Part shown: positions 24,415-27,408 of the stretch, one piece after another
Numbering within the stretch: the first letter of the stretch is position 1
How the letters are laid out: each line of letters begins with the position of its first letter
Origin: Sphingobacteriales bacterium
GTDB lineage: Bacteria > Bacteroidota > Bacteroidia > Chitinophagales > LD1
DNA length: 64,000 nucleotides
Assembly (NCBI GenBank): GCA_018262795.1
Contig: JADFDM010000008.1
Location: 1 to 64,000 of the forward strand
Direction of reading: 5' to 3'
Notes under the pieces: model-generated
The model's database searches: none
What the model was told of the DNA's origin: nothing
What the model saw: the letters and a program-made list of their open reading frames with translations, nothing else
Program-made: the position numbers and the translations under genes

Positions 24415-25689
24415 TTAGTCATGTTGTATAATCAGTTGCTTGGTTGCTTTTTGCCCCTCATGCCCGGTAAGGGTGATGAAGTAAACTCCTGCAGAAAAGT
24501 GTTCGGTGTTGATTCTTAAGTTTTGAGTAGCAATAGCTCTTTCCAAAATTATTTTTCCCCTCAGATCGGTAATGGTAACGGTCGCATCGGTACTACTTTC
24601 ATCAGTGGTGAGAGTCAGTTGGTTCTTGGCCGGGTTGGGAGAAATAGTAAAAGCGATACGGGGGAGTTCAAAAATATTATTGGAGGGATGAATCACTAAA
24701 GTTTGACTAAACGAATCTGCCTGGCCGCATTCATTGCTCACCACTTCGGTGATGATATAAGTGCCCGTGTCAGAATAAGTGTGGGTGGGCTGCACTCCAT
24801 TGCCAAAGGTATTATCGCCAAAGCTCCAACGGATGGTGTGGTAATTAGTAGAGGCAGTTCCATCGAACTGATAGCTCATTGTTGCTTCATTCCCCGAGTA
24901 AGTAAAATGTGCTTGTGGGGCAAACACTCCAATGTTCCAATTAGCCAAGGAATCGAATACCGTGTGGTAGGCAATATTCTGCAAATAGTCGTTGGTGGGC
25001 GCTGAACTCAAAGGAGAATAAGCCAAGCCTACAGGAGATTTTTGGAAAAGGGTACCGTAGAAAACACAGGCCGTCAGGTAAGAGCCGGCAAGGCTTGGGT
25101 GGCTATTATCCGAACTCCATAAATTGACAAGGGTATCGGTGTGCCAACTGGCATACCATGCCATACCTGCCGGAGCTACTATCGCATCGTTGTGGTTGGC
25201 CATATCCAGATAGCTCGCGCGCAGGCGATCTTGCACGCCATCAAAGGTGCATATCACCGGATAGCTGCCGCAGTTCTGCTGGTCGCCATATTTTTTGCCC
25301 CAGGTCATGTAGAAAACAGTTTCGGTGCAAGAATCATTTTCGTGAATAAGGCTGTCGAGCGTGCGGGCATAAGGGTAAGTTTCGCTGGCCACCTGTTGGG
25401 GCGGGAAGGACGGCTCCTGACTTTGTGCCTGAATCACTACATAGTCCCATTGCTGCGAGTATATTTTCTGAATACCTGAAGCATCTGTAGCGTGTTGGTG
25501 CAGGGTGTAGCCACCCGGAGCATACGAATCGAAAATCACCGTATCTCCGGCACTCAATGCCAAGTCGTGAAATAGCTGCGGCAGATTATTCACCGTAGTG
25601 TAGCTATTGCCCAACCAAAGTATTTTAATGGCTTGTGCATGGCTGATGTAAAAGCTAAACAGAAGGATTGAAAGGATTAACTTCTTCAT
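24415..25689 (-). CDS. secreted SGNH-hydrolase-like protein with PKD domain and T9SS sorting domain
   Basis: A 424-residue exported protein. A signal peptide covers about residues 1-19. The first domain (20-255) has SGNH marks: LWLGN28-S29-YT in place of GDSL (block I) and D194-NS-H197-PSLAG (block V, catalytic Asp-His), so an esterase/acetylhydrolase role on carbohydrate is plausible. A PKD domain follows (about 265-340: WSFGDNTFGNGVQPTHTYSDTGTYIITE). The last 80 residues are a T9SS type A domain (FTISPNPAKNQLTL ... FSAGVYFITLTGHEGQKATKQLIIQ). The substrate is unknown. Confidence 0.88.
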   Translation of the reverse strand: MKKLILSILLFSFYISHAQAIKILWLGNSYTTVNNLPQLFHDLALSAGDTVIFDSYAPGGYTLHQHATDASGIQKIYSQQWDYVVIQAQSQEPSFPPQQVASETYPYARTLDSLIHENDSCTETVFYMTWGKKYGDQQNCGSYPVICTFDGVQDRLRASYLDMANHNDAIVAPAGMAWYASWHTDTLVNLWSSDNSHPSLAGSYLTACVFYGTLFQKSPVGLAYSPLSSAPTNDYLQNIAYHTVFDSLANWNIGVFAPQAHFTYSGNEATMSYQFDGTASTNYHTIRWSFGDNTFGNGVQPTHTYSDTGTYIITEVVSNECGQADSFSQTLVIHPSNNIFELPRIAFTISPNPAKNQLTLTTDESSTDATVTITDLRGKIILERAIATQNLRINTEHFSAGVYFITLTGHEGQKATKQLIIQHD

Positions 25690-25718
25690 GGATTATTTTT
25701 GGAGGATTCATCTGTGCG

Positions 25719-25726
25719 CAAAAGTA
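25719..25726 (-). promoter_or_regulatory. -7 element upstream of the SGNH gene
   Basis: The minus strand reads TACTTTTG, a perfect TAnnTTTG, 29 nt before the ATG at 25689. No good -33 box lies 18-21 nt upstream, so the promoter is only partly supported. Confidence 0.4.
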
Positions 25727-25935
25727 ATGCGTTTGTGTAAGGAACTTTTACTCTCACTTTATCCTATCCAATTCAACGTTGGGAAACCCTTTTGGCCGGC
25801 AGTACAATCCGCTCCTATGGAGTAAGACACAGTTTCCCCCTCGGCCCACCTCTAAGCATTGTTATTTATAACTCTGAATGATGAAAGAGGCCTATTGTTG
25901 GCGTGGCTGGTAGCAGTGCTGGCGTGCCCACTGCC
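25727..25935. other. intergenic flank left of the repeat array
   Basis: Apart from the possible degenerate unit at 25915-25935 I see no gene, hairpin terminator or RNA in this stretch. It is non-coding by composition and by the lack of a credible start. Confidence 0.5.
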
Positions 25936-26355
25936 GCCAATCACGGGCCCGCTGCCACTCAGCACGTGCCCATTGCCGCCAATTAGGTGCCTACGGTCAC
26001 TCAGCACGTGCTTACTACCGCCAATCACGGGCCTACGGCCAGTAGAAACATTTTTACTGCGACTAAAAACATTTTCACTGTGGCTAAAAACTTTTTCACT
26101 GTCAGTAAAAACATTTTCACTGCGGCTAAAAATCTTCCCACTGGCAGTAAAAACTTTCACACTGCCGGTAAAAACATTTTCACTGCGGCTAAAAATCTTC
26201 TCACTGTCAGTAAAAACATTTTCACTGCGGCTAAAAATCTTCTCACTGTCAGTAAAAACATTCTCACTGTGGCTAAAAATCTTCCCACTGCCAGTAAAAA
26301 TATTCTCATTGTGGCTAAAAATCTTCCCACTGCCGGTAAAAATCTTCCCACTGCC
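25936..26355. repeat. array of 20 contiguous 21-bp tandem repeat units, two unit families
   Basis: Units are exactly 21 bp throughout. Five GC-rich units (25936-26040) alternate between gccaatcacgggcct-type and actcagcacgtgc-type, giving a 42-bp higher-order period; a degenerate sixth may lie at 25915-25935. Fifteen AT-rich units follow in the same register (26041-26355), again in a loose two-type alternation: agtaaaaacattttcactg and gctaaaaatcttctcactg. Each AT-rich unit has one A-tract and usually a T-tract. Because 21 is a multiple of 3, four of six frames stay open and yield heptad-like nonsense peptides; I do not regard any as a gene. The array lies between the divergent SGNH gene and the GSCFA gene. 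Confidence 0.95.
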
Positions 26356-26415
26356 TATCCATCACTAAACCGCCACCGCTGTAAAATATCCGACTTCATT
26401 GCCGTGCAGTCCGCC

Positions 26416-26423
26416 TATATTTG
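26416..26423 (+). promoter_or_regulatory. -7 element four bases before the GSCFA start codon
   Basis: TATATTTG is a perfect TAnnTTTG and ends only 4 nt before the ATG at 26428, which puts the expected transcription start at or next to the A of the start codon. The -33 box is weak (TTG at 26399-26401, spacing 14). Confidence 0.5.
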
Positions 26424-26427
26424 CGCC

Positions 26428-27408
26428 ATGAATCCTTTTCGCACTCTTGTGAAGCCAACAAACCCCGGCTTTCGGTTTTCGCACTCCAATAAGTTGATGA
26501 GTATAGGCTCTTGTTTTTCTGAAAGTCTCGGCCACAAATTTCAGGAATACAAATTCAACATGACCATCAACCCTTTCGGCCAACAATACAATCCGGCTTC
26601 CATAGCACAAGGTATCCATCGCCTTTTGTCTCCTGAACCATATACCGAAGATGATTTGGGTTTTCACAACGAACTTTATTTCAGTTATGAGCACCACGGC
26701 AGTTTTTCCGGCAGTGACCTAGAGGCGGTGCTTACCCACATGAACCGGCAACTCAAGGAGGGCGCTCCTGCTATTCGCCAAGCCGATGTGCTGTTTCTTA
26801 CGCTGGGCACTTCGCAGGTGTTTGAGTTGAAAGAAACGGGCAAAATAGTTTCCAATTGCCACAAAATGCCCTCCGATATTTTTACCAAACGAATGTTGGA
26901 ACCCGCTGAAACGATGCACCGATTAAGCGTTGCCATCGGGGAACTGCTCAAAGTCAATCGCCAAGTAAAAGTGATTTTCACCGTTAGTCCGGTGCGCTAT
27001 TTTGCTGATGGTGCCTTCGAAAACTCGGTGAGTAAGGCGCAACTGTTTGCTGCTATTTATGAAATGACGGAGATGAACTCAGTGTACACTTACTTCCCTT
27101 CTTACGAAATGGTGATTGATGACTTGCGCGATTATCGTTTTTACAAAGAAGATATGGTGCACCCCGGCAGCCAGGCTACGGAATATGTTTGGCAAGGGTT
27201 GTGCGAAAGTTTGATGACCGATAGCAGCCGGGAGTTGATGAAGGAAATTGAGGAAATAAGGTTAGCTGCACAGCATCGTCCGCGCAATCCGAACAGTGAC
27301 GCACATCGAAAATTTATTGCCCGCACGATAAATAAAATAGAAGAGCTACACAAAAACTATTCTCTCGATTTTACAAAAGAGCAGGAGATTTTGCAGAATG
27401 CCCGATAG
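26428..27408 (+). CDS. GSCFA-domain protein
   Basis: A 326-residue protein of the GSCFA family, an SGNH-related fold of unknown substrate. The name motif is G27-S-C-F-S-E near the N-terminus, preceded by the family start pattern (NPFRTLV). Later blocks are FLTLGTSQVFEL, FTVSPVRYF and YRFYKEDMVHPG, the last carrying the Asp-x-x-His-like end motif. The ATG at 26428 is chosen because it precedes the conserved FRT motif; the same frame stays open upstream only through the repeat array. No signal peptide is present, so it is probably cytosolic. Confidence 0.88.
   Translation: MNPFRTLVKPTNPGFRFSHSNKLMSIGSCFSESLGHKFQEYKFNMTINPFGQQYNPASIAQGIHRLLSPEPYTEDDLGFHNELYFSYEHHGSFSGSDLEAVLTHMNRQLKEGAPAIRQADVLFLTLGTSQVFELKETGKIVSNCHKMPSDIFTKRMLEPAETMHRLSVAIGELLKVNRQVKVIFTVSPVRYFADGAFENSVSKAQLFAAIYEMTEMNSVYTYFPSYEMVIDDLRDYRFYKEDMVHPGSQATEYVWQGLCESLMTDSSRELMKEIEEIRLAAQHRPRNPNSDAHRKFIARTINKIEELHKNYSLDFTKEQEILQNAR

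Follow-up and report, generated by a model that had tools for sequence, protein, structure and literature searches.

A 21-bp array between two genes and its copies in the same genome

The window, by which we mean the whole stretch of 64,000 nucleotides under analysis, carries a tandem array of 21-bp units at 25924–26355 (20 to 21 units in one register with a 42-bp alternation; no strand assigned). To its right, 72 bp after 26355, begins a plus-strand gene of the GSCFA family (26428–27408; PF08885, E = 1.4e-84), and to its left, 235 bp from 25924, lies a minus-strand gene (24415–25689) whose product, a DUF4886/PKD protein, carries a type IX secretion tail. The array opens with GC-rich units resembling GTGCCCACTGCCGCCAATCAC (25924–26040) and continues with AT-rich units in which AAAAACATTTTCACTGCGGCT and AAAAATCTTCTCACTGTCAGT alternate (26041–26355), neither part being assigned to a strand. 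A first-pass annotation had described twenty exact 21-bp units at 25936–26355, and self-comparison bore this out: Identity amounted to 0.68 at a lag of 21, 0.78 at 42, and 0.71 at 63, versus 0.29–0.36 at off-register lags (18–20, 22–24, 40, 41, 43, and 44), and the best lag between 10 and 89 in any of 500 shuffles reached 0.355. The maximum at lag 42 likewise agrees with the alternation of two unit types (a 42-bp super-period) noted at that stage. The proposed division into 5 GC-rich and 15 AT-rich units held for composition (GC content 0.52–0.76 versus 0.24–0.48) but not for extent, as the GC-rich part starts at least one unit earlier, at 25924; similarly, the register does continue across the GC/AT switch, but whether the switch falls on a unit border (26040/26041) depends on the phase that is chosen. 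Tracking of the register along the array yielded 0 lag changes and 85 mismatches over 393 compared positions, consistent with the claimed absence of indels. TRF returned periods of 21, 42, and 63 and gave 1–5% indels for the AT-rich half, which the register tracking did not bear out. The units are contiguous and lack spacers, unlike a CRISPR-type layout of near-identical repeats with unique spacers.

A search of the same genome for further copies, as had been proposed, found the unit family at two more sites in the same orientation, C19:46547-47175 and C11:237905-238650. The C11 copy reproduces the order seen in the window, with clean GC-rich units (CACGTG...; C11:237905-237981) followed by AT-rich ones (AAAAACATT...; C11:238009-238650), and the C19 copy holds homologous AT-rich units with only degenerate GC-rich units at the corresponding end. 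Because the GC-to-AT switch is common to the window and to the homologous C11 array, it belongs to the array family. The flanks of the three copies resembled one another no better than shuffles did. A DNA search with the AT-rich part did not find the unit family in 59 relatives, a plasmid search gave no match to the window array, and no GSCFA gene that could mark a counterpart of the site was present in the relatives' sampled contigs. On the plus strand of the C11 array (L011 3358-4209), 283 residues can be read from an ATG without a stop, and a recent expansion of this copy is likely because many of its units encode identical GKNILTV heptads.

Four of the six reading frames had been reported as open over 25936–26355, a count that we had to correct to two stop-free frames and a third with one stop. 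The plus frame that stays open in C11 and C19 is broken in the window array by a TAG stop (25984–25986, plus strand). Past this stop, the frame reads open through the rest of the array and into GSCFA (25987–27408), and automatic gene calling may lengthen the GSCFA protein by 147 residues of array and spacer. On the minus strand, the ORF at 25852–26160 matched the Pfam antifreeze beta-roll PF21300 (E = 4.5e-8), an identity that we rejected, the match being probably a by-product of the 7-residue periodicity.

Strings resembling the promoter −7 element, which has the consensus TAnnTTTG, flank the window array: TATATTTG (26416–26423, plus) stands 12 bp before the GSCFA start, with no well-spaced −33 element discernible by eye, and TACTTTTG (25719–25726, minus) stands 30 bp before the start of the minus-strand gene. 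A third TAnnTTTG match within 25601–26470, at 25694 (plus), lies beside the start of the minus-strand gene and points away from it, and about 28 strings of this type occur per strand in the 64-kb window. When scored for a two-box promoter, the segment before the minus-strand gene reached 7 of 10, i.e., not above its shuffles (7.26); the GSCFA-side segment lies outside the 35 segments of this scoring.

A common pitch among arrays of unlike sequence

Arrays of 21 bp, for which a search of other genomes of the genus had been suggested, proved to be common there. We scanned whole stretches over all lags from 10 to 159 without regard to period, because the protein query described below is itself 7-residue periodic and favors 21-bp arrays, and we counted an array as non-coding if no open frame through it ran at least 100 residues beyond it. 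Four genomes of the genus contributed 2.04 Mb and 37 non-coding arrays, of which 24 had a period that is an exact multiple of 21 (21n), the other 13 periods being 14, 15, 15, 34, 41, 41, 43, 64, 76, 77, 114, 120, and 153. Coding arrays of the same four genomes had periods such as 18, 45, and 51, with only 4 of 43 at 21n (Fisher p = 2.6e-7 for non-coding versus coding). Around 80 GSCFA homologues in named records (1.53 Mb; 80 of 103 related loci kept, almost all Bacteroidota by title), 1 of 16 non-coding arrays was at 21n (p = 7e-5 versus the genus), and two other genera of the family yielded 0 of 4 (0.38 Mb). The period of a neutral VNTR is free to vary between loci, which is not the behavior of this genus, with its 24 arrays at 21n.

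A protein made from the C11 copy found matches in 23 of 60 genomes, its own included, with 0 to 17 matches per genome of the genus. All of the 20 places that were fetched (19 in other genomes and one, on C15, in its own) had a period that is a multiple of 21 by TRF; the indel rate was 0% for most rows, with a few ranging up to 18%. Across the order, 31 of 159 genomes matched this periodic query, many of the matches lying within long open frames; those in short or interrupted frames formed groups in families f11, f15, and f20 and occurred singly in f3 and f13. The only non-genus sequence inspected in the order, that of G039 of f11, contains two arrays (L050 and L064), both of 21 bp. A further f11 genome, G079, gave 126 first-look candidates for sequence of 7-residue periodicity, more than any other listed genome of the order sample, and may be the richest in such arrays.

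The arrays that agree on this pitch are mostly unrelated in sequence. Among 42 compared arrays, 30 had no related partner (E < 1e-15) and the remaining 12 fell into small families, mostly within one genome; no motif common to the arrays was seen by eye. The impression from the window that spacing is more strictly kept than sequence extended to the larger set, where 41 arrays showed 2,063 mismatches versus 10 lag changes over 10,105 positions near lag 42. The 10 lag changes fall in 5 of the 41 arrays, four of them being terminal, in two AT-rich arrays whose identity is about 50%. At G017C2:250095, the TTTGTCGG core reverses its orientation midway and the 21-bp pitch is kept, and the arrays with periods of 41 and 43 bp demonstrate that a register may shift by one base in its entirety. 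For the register, coding, curvature, folding, and position tests, we drew on 27 arrays chosen by hand from the all-lag scans for lags at multiples of 21 or at 41/43, and the register, codon-phase, promoter, and relatedness sets also held 9 to 16 extra arrays from the 7-residue-periodic query, a source that favors 21-bp arrays; one short array was dropped from register tracking and one array from the folding test before counting.

The main finding is a fixed pitch with free sequence, which extends far wider than the window array and points to selection or a mutational process that acts on spacing rather than on sequence. A spacing of two helical turns, as first suggested for the window, fits the 21 bp, and its strongest support is the pitch common to many mostly unrelated arrays of the genus. 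A period of 21n by itself would fit other divisors of 21 as well as a 10.5-bp ruler, and homogenization between units could itself remove indel variants. A mutational source could be a lineage-specific minisatellite process, in which a replication, repair, or mobile-element enzyme (for example, one that grips the DNA by two helical turns) would duplicate in 21-bp steps and leave arrays that are mostly neutral and tolerated between genes. We regard this as a credible account, if short of a probable one: It agrees with arrays that vary in sequence and number between species (the 0 to 17 matches per genus genome), with related array families scattered inside genomes, with the absence of a common motif by eye, and with the higher multiples of 63, 84, 105, 126, and 147 that also occur as periods, but it is at odds with diverged units that keep their register and, as described further below, with the genes beside the arrays.

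Coding, curvature, and folding

The arrays behave as non-coding DNA, as the first-pass annotation had held: On the basis of summed column variability, codon-phase bias at p ≤ 0.05 was confined to 2 of the 37 arrays tested, a set from which two short arrays and the three with periods of 41 or 43 bp had been left out. The periods of 41, 41, and 43 found in the genus are furthermore not multiples of 3. Both observations speak against a plus frame that encodes a 7-residue repeat protein, which we consider very improbable even though such frames are open in the C11 (283 aa) and C19 (251 aa) copies, where they end at similar places. Third codon positions hold most of the differences between the window and C11 (53 of 112) and between C19 and C11 (86 of 196), but the fewest between the window and C19 (13 of 59), and these counts are not independent, as units repeat the same differences. 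The window copy has, in addition to its TAG, no stop of its own before GSCFA. With so few arrays biased, the window frame interrupted, and the own-genome comparisons inconsistent, we rejected coding as a general explanation. The lack of a codon signal, like the common pitch and the rare register slips, is a directly observed property of the arrays.

Intrinsic curvature, also raised for the window, did not emerge as a common property. It is conceivable, if unlikely, that the arrays are curved, nucleoid-organizing DNA, where 21-bp repeated units would add their bends in phase and a nucleoid protein would use the bend regardless of sequence. Calculated from wedge parameters, the predicted bend of unit-permuted arrays averaged 40–72 degrees per 126 bp versus 41.5 for the intergenic background, and 8 of 24 arrays, that of the window included, lay at or above the 95th percentile of intergenic predicted bend. 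Against their own unit-permuted controls, however, only 3 of the 24 stood out at z ≥ 2 and the mean z was 0.35; moreover, 6 of 24 lay at or below about the background median, and the A/T spectrum had no excess at 10.5 bp (0.042 versus 0.048 if even). On account of the low mean z, curvature was rejected as a general, unifying property. The variability of unit columns had its strongest component at 10.5 bp (0.102) and the next at 21 bp (0.091), compared to 0.048 if even, a mild hint of helical organization inside the units.

Similarly, we doubt that the arrays act as RNA or single-stranded structures, whereby they would be transcribed or exposed as single strands and self-complementary units would form long hairpins. 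In a folding test that took the first nine units of long arrays, 13 of 26 arrays folded better than unit-permuted controls matched for strand, be it on one strand or on both (p ≤ 0.025). The window array did so on its minus strand (z = −4.3; for 25880–26400 minus, z = −8.9 versus dinucleotide shuffles). The other 13 arrays failed the test, and 10 of the 13 positive ones were positive on both strands, such that it may be the DNA that is symmetric; the promoter-like elements are located on the downstream side of the arrays, and Rfam yielded only 5 sub-threshold miRNA models. With half of the arrays negative, RNA hairpins were rejected as the unifying property. Self-complementarity is common among the arrays without being universal, and it looks more like dyad symmetry of DNA than like strand-specific RNA.

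Neighboring genes and a candidate regulatory role

Of 27 listed arrays, 24 lie outside called genes, and the inclusion of the window array among the other three is due solely to the open frame that continues from it into GSCFA. The genes around the arrays were oriented much as those around other long gaps (9 divergent, 12 tandem, and 3 convergent versus 73, 161, and 48), and for the three arrays between convergent genes, a promoter role is unlikely. In the 35 segments between array and gene start, the best TTTG-N17..23-TAnnTTTG score averaged 8.17 of 10, versus 7.41 in shuffles and 6.86 in array tails, and promoters are suggested there by consensus only.

The arrays recur 5' of one class of uncharacterized proteins, whose N-terminal part, in our reading, is probably helical. 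Three of nine proteins tried against Pfam had carboxypeptidase-regulatory-like C-terminal domains, one of which also matched a related fold model above its cut-off; the other six gave nothing above the curated cut-off. No match was found in NCBIfam or PHROGs for four class representatives, among PDB sequences for one representative, or among plasmids for a class protein. The sampled contigs contain 7 full-length class genes, each with an array on its upstream side; 6 of these genes are part of the class definition, and the array of the seventh, newly found one (G008C9:353021) is weak (lag 105, identity 0.62). Across the genus, an array place was located at most 700 bp upstream of 8 of 91 class-gene places and downstream of 1 of 91; as the periodic query misses many arrays, the share of class genes that bear one should not be read from the 8 of 91. 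Four of the eight upstream pairs are independent of the class definition, compared to ~0.07 expected by a crude estimate, and the single downstream pair, located in G001, had served in the definition of the class. For one gene of that definition, L066 (right), the array sits on the 3' side. Over 18 genomes, the numbers of arrays and class genes correlated with a Spearman coefficient of 0.89.

The places entering this count were compiled by hand from the periodic-query and class-family searches, with class families iii to v searched in 12 of the 17 other genus genomes. Left out were non-genus rows, rows in long frames presumed to be coding, repeat entries of a place on its opposite strand or in another frame, the window array with its C11 and C19 homologues, and class rows in which the match sets in past about residue 45. 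The link between arrays and class is not absolute, as G005 has arrays and no class gene found. Most listed arrays, that of the window among them, do not face class genes. L236 14132-15322 and its homologues form several families of uncharacterized, lineage-limited proteins, a single family reaching as many as 15 matches in one genome.

One pair of arrays could be compared at homologous class genes of two species, G000 (C15:194132) and G017 (C2:51890), which share 61% amino acid identity. The two upstream arrays, with periods of 42 and 43, align at a score of 63 versus a maximum of 28.5 in 300 unit-permuted controls, and the spacers between array and ATG align at chance level (10.5 versus a mean of 9.5 and a maximum of 17 in shuffles). 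This array family is multi-copy, with further copies on C5 and C12 of G000 and on C24 of G017, and nothing comparable was found in the other 16 genus genomes. Stricter genome searches linked G000 and G017 only via C5 and C24 and missed the C15–C2 pair. Since the family is multi-copy and linked only in this way, its spread, and not retention at one site, could explain the pair; the choice is between arrays retained at homologous genes and a single family that spread within both species. In two further homologous gene pairs (48% and 39% identity), an array is present in both species and the arrays are not similar. The intergenic position, the recurrence 5' of one gene class, and this one related pair with unrelated spacers are as directly observed as the pitch. 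A preference for the upstream side of one gene class, and related arrays 5' of homologous genes with unrelated spacers, are not what a duplication process in 21-bp steps would lead one to expect.

Over that process, we tentatively favor helically phased upstream regulatory arrays whose register is held by selection. The arrays would then constitute a large set of non-coding, helically phased cis-elements between genes, mostly faced by a gene start. Local homogenization of each array would make unit sequences differ from array to array, and selection would keep the units two helical turns (21 bp) apart, such that proteins on successive units, or on every second one (42 bp), would sit on the same DNA face and act together on the neighboring promoter. 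Such binding would have to tolerate or track different unit sequences, and because unit sequences mostly differ, one sequence-specific protein cannot bind all arrays. The 24 of 37 arrays at 21n have a spacing that would suit a phased regulator-binding array, and the putative promoters are suggested by consensus only, weakly so in the window. Taken one step further, the arrays may represent a cis-element that is defined by geometry, not by sequence, a proposal that we hold possible while leaning toward doubt: The genus, and patchily the order, would keep dozens of mostly unrelated arrays whose sole common rule is a 21-bp, two-turn ruler, sited 5' of promoters and preferentially 5' of lineage-limited uncharacterized proteins, and read either by a protein responsive to helical phase or by a regulator family in which each member has its own array.

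Among the top entries from the literature searched, outside which most subscription-journal papers lie, we found no description of such arrays. A minisatellite is normally recognized by its sequence, with a unit length that varies among loci. Centromere or iteron arrays, e.g., sopC of the F plasmid with its 43-bp tandem sites, have a helical pitch and often dyad symmetry. In these, one array serves one cognate protein, with one or few sites per replicon, whereas here, many chromosomal arrays have unlike units and several share single contigs, as on G017:C2 with six intergenic 21- or 42-bp arrays on 271 kb.

BrickBuilt, a 23-nt minisatellite inside a MITE of Porphyromonas gingivalis for which promoter activity was reported (PMC4596501), resembles the present arrays in its Bacteroidota host, its intergenic tandem units of about two helical turns, and its many copies. 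It differs in having one 23-nt unit sequence and, in most copies, a leader, a tail, and inverted ends (PMC4596501); here, the units are 21n bp long and mostly unrelated, and the three own-genome arrays have no conserved leader or tail flanks. Direct repeats of the heptamer TAACTGA, for which a regulatory role was proposed, lie upstream of start codons, some Bacteroidetes included, and are likewise intergenic, tandem, and near gene starts, but they have one fixed 7-bp sequence (PMC4679880), whereas in our arrays the pitch is fixed and the sequence is not. Borg tandem repeats, too, are scattered in large number over one genome, some of them intergenic, but their units are perfect and of varied length (18, 20, 21, and 36 nt are named; PMC9879509), in contrast to the diverged units of length 21n found here.

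Unrelated arrays that agree on an exact two-turn pitch separate selection on helical geometry from selection on sequence. They offer dozens of natural replicates for phase effects on promoter control or else expose a duplication process that counts helical turns.

Repeats of other kinds were also encountered. L096 267-380 (G000:C11:180267-180380) is a short 7/14-bp tandem array near a 42/126-bp array, and 14-bp arrays are present in other Bacteroidota loci as well (L164 and L175). At L102 2083-4546 (G000:C11:302083-304546), a frame of 1194 residues encodes collagen-like repeats whose periods (27, 45, and 90, among others) set them apart from the 21-bp non-coding arrays. L086 5261-10075 has a 21/42/105-bp array 5' of a gene that we take, by eye, to be Cas9-like, and a CRISPR-like array of ~76-bp pitch lies there at the contig start; the non-coding array of period 76 in the census, near a Cas9-like gene, is probably a CRISPR.
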